Assembly (NCBI GenBank): GCA_017962925.1
Contig: JAGCUK010000038.1
Coordinates: 1 to 48,530, forward strand
Length of the DNA: 48,530 nt
From: Bacteroidales bacterium
GTDB taxonomy: Bacteria > Bacteroidota > Bacteroidia > Bacteroidales > UBA932
Direction: 5' to 3'
The position numbers and the translations under genes are program-made. Below the pieces are notes generated by a model. That model saw only the letters and a program-made list of their open reading frames with translations, did not search any database and was not told the origin of the DNA. Below, piece after piece: positions 933 to 12,382 of this stretch; position 1 is the first letter of the stretch, and each line of letters starts with the position of its first letter.

Positions 933-2051
933 TTACATCAACTTCTTCATCTCTTCTTCATCAGGGAGCAGTTCCTTTAGCTTCTCCTGACTCACCTTAT
1001 AAGTGGCGACACCCATCGGACGCTGGTAATCCTGCAGCACATACTCCACGAAAGTCTTGTCGGCATCCTTACAAAGAATGATTCCTACCGGTGGATTCTC
1101 TCCTTCCAGGCGATCCTCATCATCCAAGACATGAAGATAGTGCGACAACTGTCCCAAATAAGAAGGCTTGAAAGCGCCCTTCTTCAGTTCCACGACAACG
1201 GTTGAGCGGAGAATACGGTTGAAGAACAAGAGGTCCACCCAATGATCGTGGCCCAGTTTGTCGAAGTGAACCTGATTCCCTGCATAGGTAAAACCTTTGC
1301 CGAAGGTCATGATAAAATTCTTCACATTGTGAACTATCTCGTTCTCTATCACGCGCTCGTCGATGTCTTCATCCCGTTCACCTAATTGCTCGACATTAAT
1401 ATAATCTAACAGGTACTCATCTTTAAACATCTGGATAGCTCGAAAAGCTTGCTTGTACTCCGGAATAGTCGTGATAAAGTTATTGGACATCTTTCCTTGA
1501 TTGTGGAAAGTATCCTCGGCTATCTTCTTTTGAATTCCATCCACGCTCAACTTCTGATCATAGCAAAGCTGAATGTAGTATTTACGTTCTTCCAGTGATT
1601 TCGCACTGGCTAATATGGCAGAATGATGTGAAAAGCCGATACTCATGAAAGCAATTACCGGGAAATCCTCGTAATTCGTCAGTTGTAACTGATGAATTTC
1701 CTCTTCGCCGCCATTGGCAATCTGTAATTCATCAGTCGCGACTGATGAATTGGCCTCAAGCGCCCTCCATTCCTCATAAAAGATACGCATTAAGCGAAGA
1801 TTTGTCTGAGAGAACCCCCTCAAACCCGGCAATTCATCATTAAGTTGACGGCTGATAGTAGCGATTGCATCCTTCCCCCAAAACCCCTTTCTCGTGTTAT
1901 CAGAGATGTAGCGTCCTATGCCGTAGTAAAGGGCAAGTTGTTCTTGATTCACCCCAGCGAGTGCTTTTGCCTGGCTTTTTAGAATAGCCGTCTTAATCTG
2001 CTGGACGGCTTCTTTGTATTGTGTACTGAGTTTCTCTTTCATATCGTTCAT
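933..2051 (-). CDS. YhcG-family PD-(D/E)XK nuclease (DUF1016)
   Basis: About 372 residues. The N-terminal half carries the DUF1016 winged-helix-like region (LYYGIGRYISDNTRKGFWGK, then ISRQLNDELPGLRGFSQTNL and an aromatic stretch FYEEW). The C-terminal half carries the nuclease core with Asp in WVDLLFFNR and the ELK motif in VVVELKKGAFKP, giving the D...(D/E)xK arrangement. Such proteins are single-chain nucleases found with mobile elements, toxin-like modules or restriction systems; here no methylase or specificity subunit is next to it. The window frame opens with TTG at 2054; ATG at 2051 is more likely, and a TAAATTTG promoter box at 2080-2087 fits it. It is followed after one nucleotide by a membrane-protein gene. 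Role in defence is inference. Confidence 0.88.
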   Translation of the reverse strand: MNDMKEKLSTQYKEAVQQIKTAILKSQAKALAGVNQEQLALYYGIGRYISDNTRKGFWGKDAIATISRQLNDELPGLRGFSQTNLRLMRIFYEEWRALEANSSVATDELQIANGGEEEIHQLQLTNYEDFPVIAFMSIGFSHHSAILASAKSLEERKYYIQLCYDQKLSVDGIQKKIAEDTFHNQGKMSNNFITTIPEYKQAFRAIQMFKDEYLLDYINVEQLGERDEDIDERVIENEIVHNVKNFIMTFGKGFTYAGNQVHFDKLGHDHWVDLLFFNRILRSTVVVELKKGAFKPSYLGQLSHYLHVLDDEDRLEGENPPVGIILCKDADKTFVEYVLQDYQRPMGVATYKVSQEKLKELLPDEEEMKKLM

Positions 2052-2079
2052 CAATTACAATCATCCGAGAGTCGGTTTT

Positions 2080-2087: not shown

Positions 2088-2144
2088 CAAATAATCCAAT
2101 ATAATATGGTGTACTCATAAAGGGTATGTTCCCAAGAAAAACAC

Positions 2145-2152
2145 TATCTTTG
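2145..2152 (+). promoter_or_regulatory. Promoter -7 box that decides the start of the BACON-SGNH gene
   Basis: The box TATCTTTG fits TAnnTTTG. It lies downstream of the furthest in-frame ATG (2126) and 21 nt upstream of the ATG at 2174, so transcription probably starts between the two and the protein starts at 2174, where a lipoprotein signal begins at once. Confidence 0.5.
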
Positions 2153-2173
2153 AATAGCAAACCTTGGAATACC

Positions 2174-5047
2174 ATGAAACGCCTGCTGATAACCATCCTG
2201 CCAATAAGCATCCTACCCATACTGTTCCTCCTGAACGCCTGCACGCCGCAACCACAACCGGAACCGGAAGAGCCCGAAATAGAAGAACCCCAGGAACAAA
2301 ACAAAGCATCCTTTAGCGTAAGCCCGGACAGTATCTCCCTTCCCGGAACCAATGCCCTGCTCACCATAACCATCACCTCAAATACCCCCTGGACGGTTTC
2401 CTCAACGGCAGAGTGGCTAGGCGTAACACCCTCAAGCGGCTCGAGAGATGCGATGATTGTTGTGGTTGCAAAAGACTTCCGTGGCAATGCCGAACCAAGA
2501 ACCGCACTCCTGCGTTTTTCATATGGAGATCAAGTCCTGGATGTCCCCGTTACACAAACGGCAGAGCAAGAATTCCAGGGCAGCGGAACCAAAGATGACC
2601 CCTATCTTATCACAAACGAAGCGGACCTGAGAAAACTGAGCGACCTCACCAACGATTCATCCACCGCATGGACATACTGCGCAGCGCACTACAAGCAGAC
2701 GGCCGAGATAGTCCTGATGAATACATTCACTCCAATTGCCCAGGGAGAAGTCGCATTCACAGGCAGTTACGATGGAGACTGGCATGGTTTGCACAGCATG
2801 GTCATCCGCTCCACAACGGTGAAAAAGCCTACCGGATTCATCGCTGTTGCATCCAATGCCGAAATCCGTTCCCTACGATTCTACCACTCAAACGTCGACG
2901 CCGGGTATGTCTATAGCGGCACTGTCGTGGGCAAGGCCGACAAAACAACCATCCACGATTGCGACGTCCAGGGCGAATTCCGCCAGTATGTCTCCAACCT
3001 TAAAGTCGTCAAAGAAGATAACGAAGGTTTCTCCGGAGGCCTGGCCGGATGGGTAACGGACTGCACTATAGAAGATTGCGACCTCGATGCCGACGTATCC
3101 ATCTATGGCAAATACAGTGGAGGTATGATAGGCGTGATGCAGAATTCTACCCTGGAAGGCTGCCACTTTGCCAAAGAACGCACCGTCAATATATACTACC
3201 ACTGGAGCGGAGGCCTGGTGGGCGTCATGCGCGGCTCCTCATCTTCAATCGTCAACTGCTCCTTCGAGGGTAATCTCACTTCCGTAGGTTACATCCAGGG
3301 AGGCATCGTGGGCCAGGTGGAGGGTGGCCAGATACGGAATTGCGTATTAGGCAGCTACGGTTCTATCGGCAGCGACAAGTACCTCGTGGGCGGCATCGCT
3401 GGAGCGCTTGTGCCTGTACAAAGTATACTTGTGGACCACTGTGCCTGTTATGGCACCATCAAAGGCCAGTATGCCGTCGGAGGCATAGCCGGCTATAGCG
3501 GATTCCTGTTTTCCAGCCTGAAGATAGCATCCGCCACCAAGGAGGTGAAAATCACCGGCTGCGCAACCATCGGGGCTGAAATCACCGCAACCGGCAACAA
3601 TGGTGGATCCAATCTCTATTCCATAGCTTCCGGCATCCTGGCATGGTCCCACGGCAATAATCCCCTTACCATAGATGGATGCTACAGCCGTCCGGCCCTC
3701 ATACAGACCATCTCCAGCGGCAGCCGGGGCGCCCTTGCCGGCATCCTTGCATATCAAAACTCCACCAGCGGCGACTGCAAAGTATCGAACTGCTACACTA
3801 CCCTCACGCCTTCATCCCTGCTTTCCTGCAACGATCTGGTGAGTACGCTCGACCCCAGCAGCTTCTTCTACGGAGCCATCTACTGCCGGGCAGTGCAGGG
3901 TACCAACGTTGTCGACTGTTTCTGCGATGTTGCGCTGAAGTTCGGCACGGGCGATGCTTCAGAAGAGCGGTTGGAGGCTCTGCAGACGGCACAATTTGGG
4001 GATGGCACATTGCTCGGCAAACTTCAGGCTTCCACGCAAGGCACATCATGGTATGCCGGATTTGACAATCTCCCGACCATCGATGGCCTGCCGTTGGATC
4101 CCAACGTGAAACCAAAGGCTGCCAAGCGCGTAAGCATTATCGGAGATTCCATCTCCACCTTCAAGGGATGGATCCCGGCAGGTTACAGTGCTCACTACCC
4201 CGCGGCCGACGGTTCTCTCACGCTAGTGAACGAGACCTACTGGTACCGCCTGATCCACGACTATATGGAAAGAGCAGAGCTCGATCAGAACATCGCTTTC
4301 TCTGCAACTACCGTAACAAATACGACGGATAAAAACTACGAAGCGCGCTATGGCACGGCCACCAATGCATGGTTCAAGCATGATTTCGTGACACGCTTCA
4401 AAGAACTCGGAGGCTGCGGCAACCCGGATATAATACTTATCCACGGTGGCACCAACGACTGGTCTCATAATGCCGATCCGCTCGCCCCGGGCGTGGCCAT
4501 CCGCAATGATGCCAACAACATCTACGGTGGTGAAGCCCCGTCTAAAAACATTATGGACGCAATCTTCGCTACGGCCGATGCCGCCACCACACGAAACGAC
4601 GTCAATGCTCTGCCGGACAGCACTTTCTGCCAGGCATATGCCAAACTGCTCTGCCAGATACACGAGCGCTACCCCCACTGCAAGGTCGTGTGCATAATCG
4701 GGGACTTCGTGAGCACATCCATCGAGCAGTCCATACTGCAGATTGCGGAGCACTACGGTGCCAAAACCGTCAATCTTCTCCGCGTGAACGGCTTCAACGA
4801 CCTTGGAGGATACTCACTTTCCACATTCAAGAATCAGGGAAGCCAGCCGAACATGCCCAAGCACGACTACTCCGGAAATGTGAACGGCTGTCACCCCAAT
4901 TCGGCGTGCATGAAATTCATCGCAGAAAAGATTTATACGGAGCTGGGTAACTGGCTCGAAGAAGATTACGACCAGGCTCTTGCCTTGATTCAAAGCGAGT
5001 TGGGAAAGAGTGTAGCGGGGATGTGGAAGTCGGGCTCGGCGATGTGA
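2174..5047 (+). CDS. Lipoprotein: BACON domain, beta-helix repeats, SGNH hydrolase
   Basis: About 957 residues from ATG 2174. A lipobox (LLNAC, Cys about 23) indicates a lipid anchor, so the protein is probably on the outer membrane. Residues about 35-140 resemble a BACON domain (SISLPGTNA, NTPWTVSS, EWLGVTPSSG), a carbohydrate- or mucin-binding module. Residues about 145-640 are turn-rich GG.AG/GG.VG repeats resembling GLUG or right-handed beta-helix units, opening with GSGTKDDPYLI. Residues about 650-940 form an SGNH/GDSL hydrolase: GDSIST (Ser about 658), GGTND, and a C-terminal CHPNSACM with His about 907. The likely role is deacetylation or ester hydrolysis on glycans at the cell surface; the substrate is unknown. 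The last 58 bp overlap the convergent DUF4838 gene. Confidence 0.85.
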   Translation: MKRLLITILPISILPILFLLNACTPQPQPEPEEPEIEEPQEQNKASFSVSPDSISLPGTNALLTITITSNTPWTVSSTAEWLGVTPSSGSRDAMIVVVAKDFRGNAEPRTALLRFSYGDQVLDVPVTQTAEQEFQGSGTKDDPYLITNEADLRKLSDLTNDSSTAWTYCAAHYKQTAEIVLMNTFTPIAQGEVAFTGSYDGDWHGLHSMVIRSTTVKKPTGFIAVASNAEIRSLRFYHSNVDAGYVYSGTVVGKADKTTIHDCDVQGEFRQYVSNLKVVKEDNEGFSGGLAGWVTDCTIEDCDLDADVSIYGKYSGGMIGVMQNSTLEGCHFAKERTVNIYYHWSGGLVGVMRGSSSSIVNCSFEGNLTSVGYIQGGIVGQVEGGQIRNCVLGSYGSIGSDKYLVGGIAGALVPVQSILVDHCACYGTIKGQYAVGGIAGYSGFLFSSLKIASATKEVKITGCATIGAEITATGNNGGSNLYSIASGILAWSHGNNPLTIDGCYSRPALIQTISSGSRGALAGILAYQNSTSGDCKVSNCYTTLTPSSLLSCNDLVSTLDPSSFFYGAIYCRAVQGTNVVDCFCDVALKFGTGDASEERLEALQTAQFGDGTLLGKLQASTQGTSWYAGFDNLPTIDGLPLDPNVKPKAAKRVSIIGDSISTFKGWIPAGYSAHYPAADGSLTLVNETYWYRLIHDYMERAELDQNIAFSATTVTNTTDKNYEARYGTATNAWFKHDFVTRFKELGGCGNPDIILIHGGTNDWSHNADPLAPGVAIRNDANNIYGGEAPSKNIMDAIFATADAATTRNDVNALPDSTFCQAYAKLLCQIHERYPHCKVVCIIGDFVSTSIEQSILQIAEHYGAKTVNLLRVNGFNDLGGYSLSTFKNQGSQPNMPKHDYSGNVNGCHPNSACMKFIAEKIYTELGNWLEEDYDQALALIQSELGKSVAGMWKSGSAM

Positions 5048-6549
5048 GGATCGACGAGGGTGTACCAGTTAATCGATTCGGGGCTCAGAGCATCGGCCCT
5101 GAACAAACCAATCAGCATTTTACCCCCTTCCTGCAAAAGATTCAGGCTGCGCAAGTAGTCTGAATCGAAAGAAACTTCTACCCTGTACCCGCTATTTATC
5201 TCACTCCCCACCGCCTTAGCTTCGCCCGTCCAGGAGTAATCGAACTGGCGGTAGAAAGAGTTACAATAATCCATCACCTTTCCCGCAGGATCTATTTCAA
5301 AGCCGTAGTAGCGGGCCATAGCAGGGTCACAACTCAAGAATATTTCCGCCCGGTCGGAGAAATCCACCGAACGCTCGTCCGGGCCGTCGGTAACCACCAG
5401 CGTGGAATCTGCCACCTCGAAACAAAAGCTCAAAGCCTTCCCATCGGAGCAGACAGACACCTGCGTATCATCCTTCAACCCGTCCCAGGGGTCGCTCAGG
5501 CCGCGAAAATGCCGGAAAGAGCGGAGCATCGCCCCATACTCTTCCACCGGTGCCAGAGAAGGAAAACGCCCGAAATACTCGGCATCCATGTACACCGCGA
5601 ACGAGGTCACGTTGCGGATTCCATATCGGGCATAGGTGGCCAGGTCGCTGCGGCAGACATCCGCCCGCCAGGGCAACTCCACGGCAGGGCGCTTCCACCG
5701 GCTGAACAACGACGCATCCAGCCAATACTCCAGCACCACCGCATCCCCCGCGTCGAACACCTGCAGATTGGCCTCCAGCCAGCGCAGATTGTCCCCGTTC
5801 GAAACCGGATACCCACGGGGGCAGAGCGCATCCTCCACCACCAGCGGCACGTCCCATGAACGGTAGATGGGCGCGAACTCCAGGAAAATCCCCTCATCCG
5901 GATGCACCTTCACGGGCGGATCCATAAAATGCGAGTAGGCCAGATGCGCCAGACGAGCCTCCGGATCCACCTTCCGTATCTCCTTCAGCATGCGATTTTC
6001 CACTATCAGAGCCTGCTCACTGGGGGAAAACTCCTTGCAGAGCGGGCAGCAACAGACCGGCGCGTTATCGTCCAGCCAGAAGTAGTAGCGGTGATTCCCG
6101 GGGCGCAGCAATCCCGCCAGACGGGCAGCGTTGGAGGCGATCAGCGAAAGGGCCTTCTCTGAATGCACGCAGCAGTTAAAATCCGCCGTCCGGGCGCCGG
6201 TGTCATCCATACGGAACATCTCCGGATCCTCCGAAAACAGCTCGCGCGGGAGCAACTCCCCCATCGCATGCAACTGATGCTCCACCGTAATGCCGTGCTC
6301 GCGGCAGGAGGCGGTGAAGGCACGCCCTTCCTCCGTCTCCAGGAAGCCCAGGACCTCGGAGGGAGTGATATGTGTGCCGATGGTATTGATGCCGTTGCCG
6401 GCGGCGATGCTGACCCAGTCGACCTCCGCCAATTCCTTGGTGGACAGCACTATACCGCGCATGCTCCACCAGCCTTCATCCTTCGGGGAACGGGAGCAGG
6501 CAGCCGCCAGAAGCGTAAAAGTCAGGATTGCCAGGGAACGCAGTCTCAT
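4990..6549 (-). CDS. DUF4838 lipoprotein with C-terminal carbohydrate-binding-like domain
   Basis: 519 residues with a lipoprotein signal (MRLRSLAILTFTLLAAACSR; lipobox AAAC). The central part (NTIGTHITPSE, ASCREHGITVEHQLHAMGEL, YYFWLDDNAPVCCCPLCKEF, FAPIYRSWDVPL) fits the DUF4838 family, TIM-barrel-like proteins associated with polysaccharide use in Bacteroidota. The C-terminal 160 residues (VSVCSDGKALSFCFEVADST, SDRAEIFLSCDP, FYGFEIDPAGKVMDY-like run) resemble a CBM9-type beta-sandwich. A Cys-rich CCCPLC segment is typical of this family. Its ATG overlaps the stop of a 37-codon ORF by ATGA, so translation is probably coupled. The 3' end overlaps the BACON-SGNH gene tail to tail. Glycan processing is the family context; activity is not proven. 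Confidence 0.78.
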   Translation of the reverse strand: MRLRSLAILTFTLLAAACSRSPKDEGWWSMRGIVLSTKELAEVDWVSIAAGNGINTIGTHITPSEVLGFLETEEGRAFTASCREHGITVEHQLHAMGELLPRELFSEDPEMFRMDDTGARTADFNCCVHSEKALSLIASNAARLAGLLRPGNHRYYFWLDDNAPVCCCPLCKEFSPSEQALIVENRMLKEIRKVDPEARLAHLAYSHFMDPPVKVHPDEGIFLEFAPIYRSWDVPLVVEDALCPRGYPVSNGDNLRWLEANLQVFDAGDAVVLEYWLDASLFSRWKRPAVELPWRADVCRSDLATYARYGIRNVTSFAVYMDAEYFGRFPSLAPVEEYGAMLRSFRHFRGLSDPWDGLKDDTQVSVCSDGKALSFCFEVADSTLVVTDGPDERSVDFSDRAEIFLSCDPAMARYYGFEIDPAGKVMDYCNSFYRQFDYSWTGEAKAVGSEINSGYRVEVSFDSDYLRSLNLLQEGGKMLIGLFRADALSPESINWYTLVDPHIAEPDFHIPATLFPNSL

Positions 6550-6712: not shown

Positions 6713-7858
6713 ATGAAAAGACGCGATTTTCTCAAGACTTCGGCTCTCGGTGCCGCAGGAGTAGCGCTTTCGGGCGGCCTGCAAGGATGCGTCGCCCCCA
6801 AAAAAGGCCCGATTCCCTACTCCACCGGCGGCAGCGCACGGATGAAGCTGAGCTTCTTCCCCTACGAACTTCAATTAAGGCATACTTTCACAGTGGCTTC
6901 CTACTCCCGCACCACCACACCGGGAGTGCAGGTACGCATCGACTATGACGGATTCACCGGGCATGGGGAGGCATCGATGCCGCCCTACCTCGGCCAGAGC
7001 GTGGAGAGCGTCTGCAGTTTCCTCCAGAAAGTGAATCTGGAGCAGTTTGCCGACCCGTTCCAGCTTGAGGAGATACTCGCGTATGTGGATTCCCTCTCCC
7101 CCGGCGACAGCGCGGCGAAGGCGGCAGTGGACATCGCCCTGCACGACCTTGTGGGTCAACTGCTGGGCCAGCCATGGTTCCGCCTCTGGGGCCTGAATCC
7201 CGCGAAAGCGCCCTGCACCACCTTCACCATAGGCATCGACACCCCCGAGGTAGTGCGCGCCAAGACCGAAGAATGCGCCGGGCAGTTCAGGATTCTCAAG
7301 GTGAAAGTGGGCCTGGAGAATGATAAGGAGATGATAGAGACCATCCGGAGCGTGACCGACCTGCCGCTGGCGGTGGATGCGAACCAGGGATGGAAGGACC
7401 GCGCCAAGGCCCTCAACGAGATCTTCTGGCTGAAGGAGCACGGAGTGGTGATGGTGGAGCAGCCCATGCCCAAGGAGCGCCTGGAGGATAATGCCTGGAT
7501 CACCGAGCACTCTCCCCTGCCCATTTATGCGGATGAAGCCATCCAGCGCCTGAAAGATCTCCCCGGCATACGCGGAGCATACAACGGCATCAACATCAAA
7601 CTGATGAAATGCACCGGCATGCGCGAGGCCTACCGTATGGCAGCTTGGGCGCAGGCGGAAGGGATGCGGGTGATGCTGGGGTGCATGACGGAAACCTCCT
7701 GCGCGGTTACCGCCGCAGCCCATCTCAGTCCTTTGGCAGACTTCGCGGACCTCGACGGCAATCTGCTGATCAGCAACGACTTATTCGAAGGAATGATAGT
7801 AAAAGACGGGCGGATCACTCTGCCCGACCGCCCCGGCCTGGGGCTTAAAACCATATAG
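6713..7858 (+). CDS. Dipeptide epimerase (L-Ala-D/L-Glu type, enolase superfamily), exported
   Basis: 381 residues. The N-terminus MKRRDFLKTSALGAAGVALS has a twin-arginine signal, and GGLQGC gives a possible lipobox, so the folded enzyme would be exported by Tat and perhaps lipid-anchored. The body matches muconate-lactonising/dipeptide-epimerase members of the enolase superfamily: catalytic KVKVG (both Lys), metal ligands in VDANQGW (Asp), VEQPMP (Glu) and YADEA (Asp), second catalytic Lys in NIKLMKCTG, and GCMTETS near the C-terminus. The family epimerises L-Ala-D/L-Glu from murein or other dipeptides. Most epimerases of this type are cytoplasmic, so a Tat signal is notable, though seen in Bacteroidota. 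The next gene, a C69 peptidase fusion, starts two nucleotides after its stop. Confidence 0.88.
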   Translation: MKRRDFLKTSALGAAGVALSGGLQGCVAPKKGPIPYSTGGSARMKLSFFPYELQLRHTFTVASYSRTTTPGVQVRIDYDGFTGHGEASMPPYLGQSVESVCSFLQKVNLEQFADPFQLEEILAYVDSLSPGDSAAKAAVDIALHDLVGQLLGQPWFRLWGLNPAKAPCTTFTIGIDTPEVVRAKTEECAGQFRILKVKVGLENDKEMIETIRSVTDLPLAVDANQGWKDRAKALNEIFWLKEHGVVMVEQPMPKERLEDNAWITEHSPLPIYADEAIQRLKDLPGIRGAYNGINIKLMKCTGMREAYRMAAWAQAEGMRVMLGCMTETSCAVTAAAHLSPLADFADLDGNLLISNDLFEGMIVKDGRITLPDRPGLGLKTI

Positions 7859-7860
7859 CT

Positions 7861-10095
7861 ATGACACACGGTCTCCTATACTTTTTCCTGTGTTTCGGCA
7901 TTATCGCCGGACGGAACGCCACCACCGACGGCTATGTCTATCTCGGTCACAACGAAGACCAGTTCGGCGAGCGGATGCTCAACATCTACAACGTGCCGGC
8001 CAACAAGGACCGCTGCGCGTATCTCTGGTTCGAGTTCCCCGGGGAGGCCTCGGGCGACAGTTTCGCCAACGAATATGGAGTGAGCATAGCATCGGACCAG
8101 TGTCTCTCCCGCGAAGACAAGGCCAGCGGAAAGTTGATTTATGAGATCCGCACCACCGCGATCCAGAAGGCGCACAGCGCACGTGAGGCCGTGGAGATAA
8201 TCGGCCGGCTGGTAGAGAAATATGGTTACGGTGATTCCGGCCGTTCCTATCTGGTCGCCGACCAGAAAGAGGGGTGGATAGTGGCAGTGGTGAAGGGCCG
8301 CCACTGGGTTGCCCAGAGGGTGCCGGACGACGAAATCGCCACCATCCCCAACTACTACACCATAGGAGAAATCAATCTTAAAGACAAGGCTAACTTCCTG
8401 GGTAGCAAGGATATAGTAAAGTATGCCCGCAAGCGCGGATGGTATGATCCCAAGAAGGACGGAACCTTCAATTTCCGCAAGGCCTACGCCGATCCCGGGA
8501 CTCTCACCGACAGCCACAACCTCAAGCGTCATGCCCTTGCGCAGGAGACTTTCTTCGGGGATTTCCAGCCGGAGACCTTCTCCCGCAAGCCGGAACACAA
8601 GTTCCACCGCAGACATCTCTCGCAGCTCCTCACGGTGCCGCCCATCCGCAATAACGCCACCTCCCTTACCACTGTATTCACCATGAATCCAGCCTTCCCT
8701 CCTGAAAGGGGCACGGTGGTCTGGGTAGGATTCCCGGGGCAGGATGCAGCCAGCCAGAGCCAGTGGACCGTATTCATGAGGGTGCCGGAAACTTGCCATC
8801 GCTACCCCACGGCGGATGAGGCCATGGAAAAGCACTTCACCGACACCGGAAACTACCGCGAACGATGGCCTCAGCACTTCTACTGGCATTATCTCTATCC
8901 CGAGACCGACATCGACGTCATCCCCCACGACTACACGGTTTACGTGCCGAAACAGCCGCGGATCGAGGCGGAACGCGATATCACCAAGCCAGGCGACACC
9001 TTCAACGACCACTTCCACGTGATTGCGGATCCCACCCGGGACATGCTCTTCGCCTTCTGGACCCAGGGTTCATATGAAACCGCTAACGATGAGCATGTGG
9101 TCTTCTCCAGCAGTTCGGATGGAGGATGGACCTGGACTGAACCGGTAATCCTGGCGGGCTCTGCTACCCTTGCCGACCCCAAGCCGGTGGCAGCCTGGCA
9201 GCAGCCCATGCTGAGCAAGAGCGGACGGCTCTATCTCCTTTGGAATCAGGAGACTACGCTCAAAAAGCACCTCTGCGGCACCATGTGCGGGCGCTACTCC
9301 GACGATGCCGGAAAGACCTGGTCCGAGCCCGAAACCGTCCCCTTCCCCATCCGCTTTGACGTGGATCCGGAAGATCCCTCCATCCCTCCGGTATGGTGCA
9401 TGTGGCAGAGACCGCTGCGCTTCGGACAGGGCCAGCGCTATCTGGCAGGATGCTCGCGCTACGACCGCAAAGGCATCGCGCGGGTGGAGTTCTGGCAGTA
9501 CGAGAATATAGATGACGACCCCGAGATCAGGGATATCCGCATATCCTTCTTCAACACCGGAGAGGAGTCTTTCGATGCGTCCAAAGTCGCCACGGACGAG
9601 GATTATCTCTCCCGCGAGGGCAAACTGACGGAAGAGGCCTGCATAGTGATGCTGCCGGACAAGCGCCTCTTCGCCGTGATGCGCACTACCATCGGCCATC
9701 CGATCTGGTCTGTGAGCGAGGATAACGGCCGCCATTGGAGCAGGCCCGAGGTTCTGAGGGAGAAGGATGGCGGCGCACCCATACTCCAGCCTTGCTCCCC
9801 CTGCCCTATCTACGATACGGCAGGCCCGGAGGCGCGCAGCGGCAAGTATGCGCTGTTCGTGCAGGATTGTTTCGATTTCAATGCTCCCACGGCCTACCAA
9901 AATCGCGGCCCCATGTACCGCAGGGACGGAAAGTTCGTACGCGGAGCGCACCAGCCGGTATGGTTCGGGGAGCCTGTATTGTTCTCGCCCAGAGACACCG
10001 GCAACTCCTTCTATACAAGTTGCACCGCCCTCAACGGGCAGTGCATCATGTGGTTCGGGGACCAGAAATTCTATCTGTTCGGAAAAAGACTCTAG
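7861..10095 (+). CDS. C69-family dipeptidase fused to sialidase-like BNR propeller
   Basis: 744 residues in one uninterrupted frame. Residues 1-335 match peptidase family C69: a short hydrophobic leader, then Cys11 in CFGIIAGRNATTDG and GHNEDQ, the place where processed C69 enzymes expose the N-terminal nucleophile; further GYGDSGRSYLVAD and a C-terminal region similar to dipeptidase A. Residues about 365-744 look like a six-bladed sialidase propeller with three Asp-box-like turns: SSDGGWTW (about 418), SDDAGKTW (480) and SEDNGRHW (619). No clear catalytic RIP arginine motif is visible, so this half may bind glycans only. It is co-transcribed with the epimerase. A role in trimming glycopeptides or muropeptides outside the cytoplasm is inference. 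Its stop overlaps the convergent next gene by 4 bp. Confidence 0.82.
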   Translation: MTHGLLYFFLCFGIIAGRNATTDGYVYLGHNEDQFGERMLNIYNVPANKDRCAYLWFEFPGEASGDSFANEYGVSIASDQCLSREDKASGKLIYEIRTTAIQKAHSAREAVEIIGRLVEKYGYGDSGRSYLVADQKEGWIVAVVKGRHWVAQRVPDDEIATIPNYYTIGEINLKDKANFLGSKDIVKYARKRGWYDPKKDGTFNFRKAYADPGTLTDSHNLKRHALAQETFFGDFQPETFSRKPEHKFHRRHLSQLLTVPPIRNNATSLTTVFTMNPAFPPERGTVVWVGFPGQDAASQSQWTVFMRVPETCHRYPTADEAMEKHFTDTGNYRERWPQHFYWHYLYPETDIDVIPHDYTVYVPKQPRIEAERDITKPGDTFNDHFHVIADPTRDMLFAFWTQGSYETANDEHVVFSSSSDGGWTWTEPVILAGSATLADPKPVAAWQQPMLSKSGRLYLLWNQETTLKKHLCGTMCGRYSDDAGKTWSEPETVPFPIRFDVDPEDPSIPPVWCMWQRPLRFGQGQRYLAGCSRYDRKGIARVEFWQYENIDDDPEIRDIRISFFNTGEESFDASKVATDEDYLSREGKLTEEACIVMLPDKRLFAVMRTTIGHPIWSVSEDNGRHWSRPEVLREKDGGAPILQPCSPCPIYDTAGPEARSGKYALFVQDCFDFNAPTAYQNRGPMYRRDGKFVRGAHQPVWFGEPVLFSPRDTGNSFYTSCTALNGQCIMWFGDQKFYLFGKRL

Positions 10096-11389: not shown

Positions 11390-11428
11390 TAGCATCGATT
11401 CCACCCTAAAGAGTGGTGGTCGATGCTA
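11390..11428. repeat. Hairpin overlapping the 3' end of the phosphodiester glycosidase gene
   Basis: Perfect 9-bp arms TAGCATCGA (11390-11398) and TCGATGCTA (11420-11428), continued inward by CCACC/GGTGG with small mismatches. The right arm contains the stop codon of the gene. There is no T-run on the minus strand after it, so it is not a canonical intrinsic terminator; it may protect the 3' end of the mRNA. Confidence 0.5.
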
Positions 11429-12382
11429 CATCTTTTCCATTATCACCCAGGCATTGATGACGGCGCGGGCGCTGCCGTCCGAGGGTTTGTTGCGCGTCTC
11501 GAACTTGTCCGTAGAAGGATTTCGGACCAGGAGCTGGGTGGATCCGCCACCGTCCAGGTTGACGGCACGGTCGCAGCCGAGAGCCTCAAAGATGCTTCCC
11601 ATCTCATCGTAGGTCATACCCTCCGACACGCCCGCGTTCCTGCCATCCACGCAGAAGAAATACACGAAGCCATCTTTAGTATAGCCTATCGCCGTGCGGG
11701 GATGCCGGTCGTCCGCTGGCCAGGATGAATTGTCCACCTGCTTGCCGTCCCACGCCAGCATGATGCCGGAGCCCGTCACATTGGGGAAAGCAACCCCATC
11801 CGCCGAATAACTGGCACTATAGTCTATGTTCATCTTGTCCTCCGAAGAGCAGCTGACATACGAGATGCCCTGCTTGTTGCCGGACGGTTGGAACGTAGAA
11901 CTGATGACCTGTCCGTTGCAGTGCACAGGGCCTTTGGGGACAAAGGTGGTTGTGTTCCAGAAATCTGCATTTATCATCGCTATCACCAATCCCCCATTGA
12001 GGTCCAGGGCATAAGCCATGGTGGAGAGGGTGCGCCGGGGCCACTCGCCGGTCGGTTTTTCCATGGAAGGAAGAGCCACACGTGCGAAGATGCTGTCCCT
12101 GTCGAGATCTGCCGATATGATGAAGATATTCTCCTTCATGCCGTTGGTGAGCGTGACCATAAAATCGGTCTCCTGAACGCCTCCGGTGAGGGTTGTGGTG
12201 CTGCAGGAAACAACTTCTTTGATCACGGAAGCCTTCTTGACCAGGTTCTGGACATCGGGCATCTCCCGGTATTGCATCGGTTCTTTATCCGGCGGAAGCT
12301 CGTTCCCGTTTTCCGGCTTATGGCATCCATTCAGGAAAAGGCCGGAAAGCAGAATCAGGATGATTGTGGAACTCCGTTTCAT
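11426..12382 (-). CDS. Phosphodiester glycosidase family lipoprotein (NAGPA domain)
   Basis: 318 residues with a lipoprotein signal (lipobox LNGC in GLFLNGCHKP). The mature part matches the NAGPA/DUF2233 fold, whose founding member is the mammalian uncovering enzyme (N-acetylglucosamine-1-phosphodiester glycosidase): INADFWN, PRTAIGYTKDG, FFCVDGRN, GMTYDEMGSIFEALGC and the signature VNLDGGGSTQL, followed by SARAVINAW. In bacteria these enzymes cleave sugar-1-phosphodiester bonds, for example in teichoic-acid-like polymers or phosphoglycans; the exact substrate is unknown. It is the last gene of a six-gene run, seven nucleotides after the YpfJ-like gene. Confidence 0.85.
   Translation of the reverse strand: MKRSSTIILILLSGLFLNGCHKPENGNELPPDKEPMQYREMPDVQNLVKKASVIKEVVSCSTTTLTGGVQETDFMVTLTNGMKENIFIISADLDRDSIFARVALPSMEKPTGEWPRRTLSTMAYALDLNGGLVIAMINADFWNTTTFVPKGPVHCNGQVISSTFQPSGNKQGISYVSCSSEDKMNIDYSASYSADGVAFPNVTGSGIMLAWDGKQVDNSSWPADDRHPRTAIGYTKDGFVYFFCVDGRNAGVSEGMTYDEMGSIFEALGCDRAVNLDGGGSTQLLVRNPSTDKFETRNKPSDGSARAVINAWVIMEKM

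Follow-up and report, generated by a model that had tools for sequence, protein, structure and literature searches.

A C69-type peptidase domain fused to a sialidase-like propeller in a Bacteroidales lineage: a possible two-domain hydrolase of peptidoglycan fragments

The stretch of DNA considered here (48,530 nt; hereafter the window) comprises positions 1-48,530 of the forward strand of contig JAGCUK010000038.1 (assembly GCA_017962925.1), from a Bacteroidales bacterium, called a gut bacterium, of the GTDB family-level lineage UBA932 (Bacteroidota; Bacteroidia). Within it, one gene encodes a protein in which two domains exceed their curated Pfam cut-offs, Peptidase_C69 (PF03577) at residues 96-232 (111.5 bits; cut-off 23) and BNR_2 (PF13088) at residues 396-633 (54.8 bits; cut-off 31.4). 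The features of the locus are as follows.

6713..7858, + strand: gene for an enolase-superfamily epimerase/racemase with a Tat signal; 2 bases separate its end from the fusion gene
7861..10095, + strand: fusion gene, a single uninterrupted open reading frame of 744 amino acids with both Pfam domains above cut-off
7861..7890, + strand: ten-residue hydrophobic leader before the nucleophile, its start bounded by an upstream in-frame stop
7891..8913, + strand: C69 (Ntn-cysteine) half, residues 11-351 (Pfam, alignment, profile match to 5iau)
7891..7893, + strand: Cys11, presumed N-terminal nucleophile (matches the 5iau cysteine in the alignment; kept by 26 of the 40 fusions)
8914..10092, + strand: BNR_2 sialidase-type half, residues 352-744 (Pfam, alignment, profile match to solved sialidases)
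9004..9018, + strand: residues 382-386, the place of the sialidase RIP arginine, Asn-Asp-His-Phe-His with no Arg (alignment)
9112..9135, + strand: Asp-box 1, residues 418-425 (motif search)
9298..9321, + strand: Asp-box 2, residues 480-487 (motif search)
9634..9636, + strand: Glu592, at the place of the glutamate in the sialidase Tyr/Glu pair (alignment, conservation, solved-sialidase match)
9682..9684, + strand: Arg608, aligned with the second sialidase arginine (alignment, conservation, solved-sialidase match)
9715..9738, + strand: Asp-box 3, residues 619-626 (motif search)
9904..9906, + strand: Arg682, aligned with the third sialidase arginine, less surely given gaps nearby (alignment, conservation)
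10012..10014, + strand: Tyr718, aligned with the sialidase nucleophile tyrosine (alignment, conservation)
11426-12382, - strand: NAGPA phosphodiester glycosidase gene, with a homologue between epimerase and fusion at loci L015 and L058

An earlier, sequence-only reading of this locus had proposed that a C69 peptidase is joined directly to a BNR/Asp-box propeller, and the domain search of the two halves bears this out; the fusion of the two domains in one chain is real. Orthologues of the same architecture, for which that reading had suggested a search, were found in a second collection holding one genome per species. A scan of this collection gave 36 loci: 27 with both halves (L006-L032), six with the propeller alone and three with the C69 domain alone. 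The two halves lie in one frame in all 27 except L027, the propeller half of which changes frame. The six propeller-alone loci are labelled Verrucomicrobia, Thermoguttaceae, Planctomycetia and Kiritimatiellae, one of them (L038) being cut by the contig start. By source label, ten of the fusion loci derive from a ruminant stomach compartment, 13 carry RUG names, which we take to denote a rumen genome series, and four have neither.

Within the genus of the window, 46 of 400 sampled genomes matched at E 1e-60 or better, and these comprised 38 fusions, two propellers alone (G551, G570) and six C69 proteins alone (G404, G510, G660, G683, G610, G713). No propeller was found in the flanking stretches examined around these six stand-alone C69 genes, nor a C69 gene in those around the two stand-alone propellers. 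At the family level, 8 of 299 genomes matched at E 1e-40, seven from the same genus and one from another (G828), whose match is also a fusion (L091); for the order as a whole, the propeller profile at a threshold of E 1e-10 picked out 4 of 393 genomes, with a strong match in the window's own genome and weak ones in the other three. Removal of duplicates left 40 distinct fusions, that of the window included. In a tree of C69 halves (51 rows), all 40 form one clade (support 100/100) with stand-alone C69 proteins of the same genus as its neighbours, and this pattern fits a single fusion event. In the propeller tree (45 rows, L027 excluded), the fusion from the other genus, L091, groups with stand-alone propellers in a part where the branching is without resolution. 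The architecture was not found in the literature searched, which consisted of titles and opening abstracts and covered few subscription papers. The parts are of known kinds; it is their combination, and the repeated decay of one half described below, that we take to be new.

For the C69 half, a profile of 15 rows, nine of them from fusions, matched a dipeptidase of solved structure, 5iau, with the match starting at the Cys of the latter (E 2e-46), and Cys11, at the start of the first strand, aligns with the 5iau cysteine, in agreement with the nucleophile assigned in the sequence-only reading. The half retains Cys11, Asp33, Asn70, Asn164 and Arg223 in the window protein, and the last four are among the invariant or nearly invariant positions of our alignment A2. 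By analogy with PLBD2, whose oxyanion hole is ascribed to an Asn and an Arg in the available part of a review (PMC9140057), Asn164 and Arg223 may form the oxyanion hole. Comparison of the window gene with that of L006 gave dN/dS values of 0.051 and 0.063 for the two halves, indicating purifying selection on both. The fusion thus shares with family C69 (PF03577; 5iau) the Cys followed by the usual first strand and the conserved Asp, Asn and Arg positions. It departs from the family in having a ten-residue leader where a signal peptide would be, in carrying the propeller in place of the C69 C-terminal region beyond approximately residue 345, in the loss of the nucleophile from 14 of the 40 fusion relatives, and in falling below the cut-off of the NCBIfam equivalog. 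With the latter (C69_fam_dipept), it scored 106.5 bits against a cut-off of 250; since this model consequently assigns no dipeptidase function, only membership in the domain family is claimed, and the shortfall counts against the explanation preferred below.

Only 14 codons lie between an in-frame stop and the Cys codon, and the sole ATG among them gives the ten-residue leader. Leaders of 7-10 mostly hydrophobic residues occur in 33 of the 40 fusions, and 26 of these leaders contain no Lys, Arg, Asp or Glu; the 33 proteins form one group in the C69 tree (support 89/92, not starred); the other seven (L020, L021, L023, L027, L029, L031, L091) have a longer N-terminus that by eye resembles a signal peptide. 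Just ahead of the nucleophile position, 30 of the short leaders have Leu and three have Met. The usual lipobox does not permit Leu or Met just before the Cys, and for this reason a lipoprotein reading of the leader was set aside. The leader is still hydrophobic in the 12 short-leader proteins that lack the Cys, and covering the nucleophile is therefore probably not its only task; service in export would be a guess. A precedent for a short leader is found in family C44, in which, according to the available part of the review cited above, a few residues ahead of the Ntn cysteine are removed through self-cleavage (PMC9140057). A similar short hydrophobic stretch directly before the Cys was also seen in two stand-alone C69 proteins (L072:4850-5869 and L073:5908-6846), although the frame of the former starts further upstream than the leader-like stretch. 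Both sit elsewhere in the C69 tree than the fusions, and parallel evolution is possible.

For the second half, a profile of 14 rows (10 from fusions) matched solved sialidases with a best E value of 2.5e-10, and this match, together with the three Asp-box-like motifs, suggests a propeller fold, perhaps the six-bladed one of GH33 sialidases. The active-site residues were mapped by alignment with three RIP-bearing proteins found via the BNR_assoc_N family and taken to be GH33 enzymes. When the propeller was aligned profile to profile against three sialidase-type proteins, only a short local match and a loose global alignment resulted, and hence the mapping relies on the match to the solved sialidases, which itself shows the correspondence of Glu592 and Arg608, and on the alignment with the RIP-bearing proteins. 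The RIP arginine is indeed absent, as the sequence-only reading had noted, and the position of the GH33 acid/base aspartate is occupied by Thr401. What such residues do in sialidases is treated in the part of PMC4747158 that was available. A sialidase of the usual kind was rejected, the positions of the RIP arginine and the acid/base aspartate being changed in the window protein and in every tabulated row. All six tabulated stand-alone propellers and 39 of the 40 fusions share Glu592, Arg608, Arg682 and Tyr718 without change, and likewise Asp383, His384, Thr401 and Gln402. The exception is the fusion L027, in which position 592 is Asp and position 718 is missing owing to the break in its frame; the propeller of L025 lacks approximately 50 residues.

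The propeller thus resembles the GH33 sialidases in its BNR/Asp-box pattern and in the aligned Glu, Tyr and two arginines, but differs from them in lacking the RIP arginine and the acid/base aspartate at the aligned positions. Its closer relatives are stand-alone BNR_2 propellers without the RIP arginine (L033-L038, L066, L067), which are approximately 49-56% identical over the part present and, unlike the fusion, have no peptidase fused to them in the frames read (that of L038 being cut by the contig start). The six tabulated among them have the same residue as the fusion at 19 of 20 positions, the exception being residue 386. More distant BNR proteins (L043-L046) share the positions of Glu592, Arg608 and Arg682; the Tyr could not be aligned cleanly.

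The residue at the nucleophile position of the C69 half is Cys in 26 of the 40 fusions, Ser in nine and Gly in five. As all 11 tabulated stand-alone C69 rows have Cys, this residue is taken to be the older state, and the propeller tree then requires at least two losses, one in L029 together with L031 and another in a clade of 12. Among the 14 rows lacking Cys, residue 164 is Asp or Gly in nine, and residue 223 is absent or Ala in ten. The pattern has its complications: L017 and L030 keep the Cys with Asp at 164, L091 has Tyr at position 33, and L080 has Ser at the nucleophile position with most other positions intact. Rates of amino-acid-changing substitution in the two halves were compared in 20 chosen close pairs. 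The C69/propeller ratio of these rates was 0.57-1.64 in ten of the 11 pairs with Cys (2.11 for L017-L030) and 1.45-4.18 in the nine pairs without it (Mann-Whitney p 0.0018, the pairs not being independent); the C69 half changes faster in fusions that have lost the nucleophile. The dN/dS values remained below 0.2 for both halves in all 20 pairs, and the altered C69 half is thus still held by selection. In some relatives, then, the peptidase half looks dead while the propeller is intact. The family offers a natural series within one genus, which runs from stand-alone halves, through a fusion single in origin by appearance and the replacement of a signal peptide by a 7-10-residue leader, to at least two losses of the nucleophile with the propeller intact.

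These observations bear on what the propeller does. The sequence-only reading had offered it as a binding module, and a propeller that only binds sugar, steering an active C69 peptidase to glycopeptides or muropeptides, would agree with the missing RIP arginine and acid/base aspartate and with the intact C69 half of the window protein. The Tyr/Glu pair and two of the three sialidase arginines are nevertheless kept in almost all fusions and in the tabulated stand-alone propellers, the propeller also exists alone, and in proteins with a decayed peptidase it is better preserved than the C69 half; being kept where the C69 nucleophile is gone, it is hardly a mere helper of the peptidase. A purely binding role is accordingly regarded as unlikely, and given the conservation of the sialidase-aligned residues, the propeller is more likely to be an enzyme than a binding module.

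Clues to the substrate come from the gene neighbours. The epimerase-like gene directly upstream of the fusion reaches the cut-off of neither model that it matched, scoring 217.8 bits (cut-off 400) with the N-acetyl-D-Glu racemase model and 151.4 bits (cut-off 343) with that of the L-Ala-D/L-Glu epimerase; it is the only such match in the window's genome, which is 84% complete. L015 and L058 have consecutive genes for the epimerase, NAGPA and the fusion. In L010, L016, L017, L030 and L065, an M15 gene (D-ala-D-ala dipeptidase by Pfam) is no more than 6 kb away from the fusion. In 12 genomes, chosen partly for their known neighbours, there is at most one M15 gene per genome if split rows are joined; it is beside the fusion in four (G615, G753, G752, G559) and on another contig in six, and none was found in two of the 12 genomes searched. 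Counted within 6 kb, or as much flank as was available, an epimerase or M15 gene accompanies 8 of the 26 fusions with Cys versus none of the 14 without it (Fisher two-sided p 0.034, the rows being related and not independent). The stand-alone C69 gene of L040 adjoins an M19 dipeptidase gene. Other neighbours of the fusions encode GH3, GH20, GH39 with a sulfatase, GH106, GH78, an S58 peptidase and a SASA esterase.

Several arrangements around the fusions were recorded in passing. In L016 (4417-14008), a same-strand run comprises genes for an M15 dipeptidase, a PCMD protein, the fusion, a SASA esterase, an S58 peptidase and a GH106 rhamnosidase, the M15 and SASA genes being assigned by likeness to those of L010. 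In L078 (4613-9892), a GH39 gene overlaps the start of the fusion frame by 8 bases and a sulfatase gene overlaps its end by 4 bases. The fusions of L029 and L031, which lack the nucleophile, are near genes for a 3-keto-disaccharide hydrolase (scanned in L029, by likeness in L031) and a GFO/IDH/MocA oxidoreductase (scanned in L031, by likeness in L029). In the window itself, positions 2126-5047 (+ strand) hold a lipoprotein-like gene of 973 amino acids with BACON, GLUG and GDSL-type matches, a homologue of which is directly upstream of the L009 fusion; positions 4990-6549 (- strand) encode a DUF4838 protein with homologues near the fusion in L009, L015 and L025; and positions 933-2054 (- strand) hold a gene with DUF1016 and YhcG-type PDDEXK nuclease domains.

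The best explanation, which is advanced tentatively, is that the fusion is a two-domain hydrolase of one Bacteroidales lineage that takes part in the breakdown of peptidoglycan fragments (muropeptides). Its architecture, its conservation, the residues kept and lost, the gene neighbours and the repeated loss of the nucleophile are read from the sequences, whereas the substrates, the cellular location and a catalytic role for the propeller are inferred, the neighbours suggesting peptides of peptidoglycan in particular. Removal of the short leader would expose Cys11 as the N-terminal nucleophile; the neighbouring epimerase would invert L-Ala-D-Glu to L-Ala-L-Glu, and the C69 half would then split small dipeptides, such as L-Ala-L-Glu. 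The propeller, for its part, would use its sialidase-like Tyr/Glu pair, two arginines and a different general acid to attack an acidic sugar in this peptidoglycan material. In the order proposed for Escherichia coli in the available part of one study, an epimerase first converts L-Ala-D-Glu from peptidoglycan to L-Ala-L-Glu, which a dipeptidase splits next (PMC2954226), and the gene pair of the window fits this order in that an epimerase-like gene is followed by a C69 domain. The pair likewise recalls YcjG followed by PepD in E. coli, and YkfB with YkfC in Bacillus, as described in that part of the same source, in placing an epimerase-like gene next to a peptidase gene; unlike the YcjG/PepD route, its peptidase is a C69 domain carrying a sialidase-like propeller, and its epimerase falls under the model cut-offs (PMC2954226).

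Several findings count against this explanation. The epimerase has a match to a Tat signal, whereas in the fusion an ordinary signal peptide is not apparent by eye; they may therefore occupy different compartments. The epimerase also scores better with the N-acetyl-D-Glu racemase model than with that of the L-Ala-D/L-Glu epimerase, below the cut-off in both cases. Moreover, 18 of the 26 fusions with Cys have neither an epimerase nor an M15 gene in the available flanks, some of which are truncated. The sequence-only reading had suggested an enzyme of sugar-bearing peptides, naming muropeptides and mucin glycopeptides as examples; the epimerase and M15 dipeptidase context favours the former in part, and nothing was seen to point to the latter.

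A role in the breakdown of glycans or glycoproteins generally, of plant or other origin, with the peptidoglycan-type neighbours incidental, would account for the fact that fusions of several lineages have neighbouring genes for GH3, GH20, GH39 with sulfatase, GH78 and GH106, which point to glycans at large and count against the muropeptide explanation, and for the GH106 gene directly beside the stand-alone propeller L067. Against this, GH106 is common, with 3-10 matches in each of nine genomes, whereas M15 and epimerase genes occur once per genome or close to it, and the general role is judged rather improbable. Because GH106 is so common, its nearness says little, and the rhamnosidase neighbours were set aside as a clue to the substrate. 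Less likely again is that the C69 half cuts another amide, such as that of an N-acylated amino acid or amino sugar, with the neighbouring gene encoding an N-acyl amino acid racemase. The half does have weak, below-cut-off matches to the AAT acyltransferase family (Pfam) and a C45 acyltransferase model (NCBIfam), and the best model of the neighbour is the N-acetyl-D-Glu racemase; the C69 match is, however, far stronger, and the M15 genes near other fusions point to dipeptides. An assembly or frame artefact, to which the sequence-only reading would have turned had all homologues kept the halves as separate proteins, is rejected as next to impossible, given the 40 distinct fusions that form one clade in the C69 tree and the absence of any point found in its favour.

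Within the muropeptide explanation, the propeller could conceivably be a glycosidase of an undescribed group with the sialidase fold, using the Tyr/Glu pair and a new general acid while two arginines hold the carboxylate of the sugar, for example that of the lactyl group of N-acetylmuramic acid. This is a long shot, and N-acetylmuramic acid as the sugar is the boldest guess made here; if true, one chain would attack both the sugar and the peptide sides of muropeptides. Many sialidase-like BNR proteins that lack the RIP arginine are not known to have a tested function. Through the conserved fusion, one group of this kind acquires a partner whose chemistry is known, and with it a testable guess at the substrate.

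Long open reading frames were also noted antisense to the fusion gene, at 7876-9018 of the window (- strand, 380 amino acids) and at L010:1741-4428 (- strand, 895 amino acids); these are probably a by-product of codon usage.
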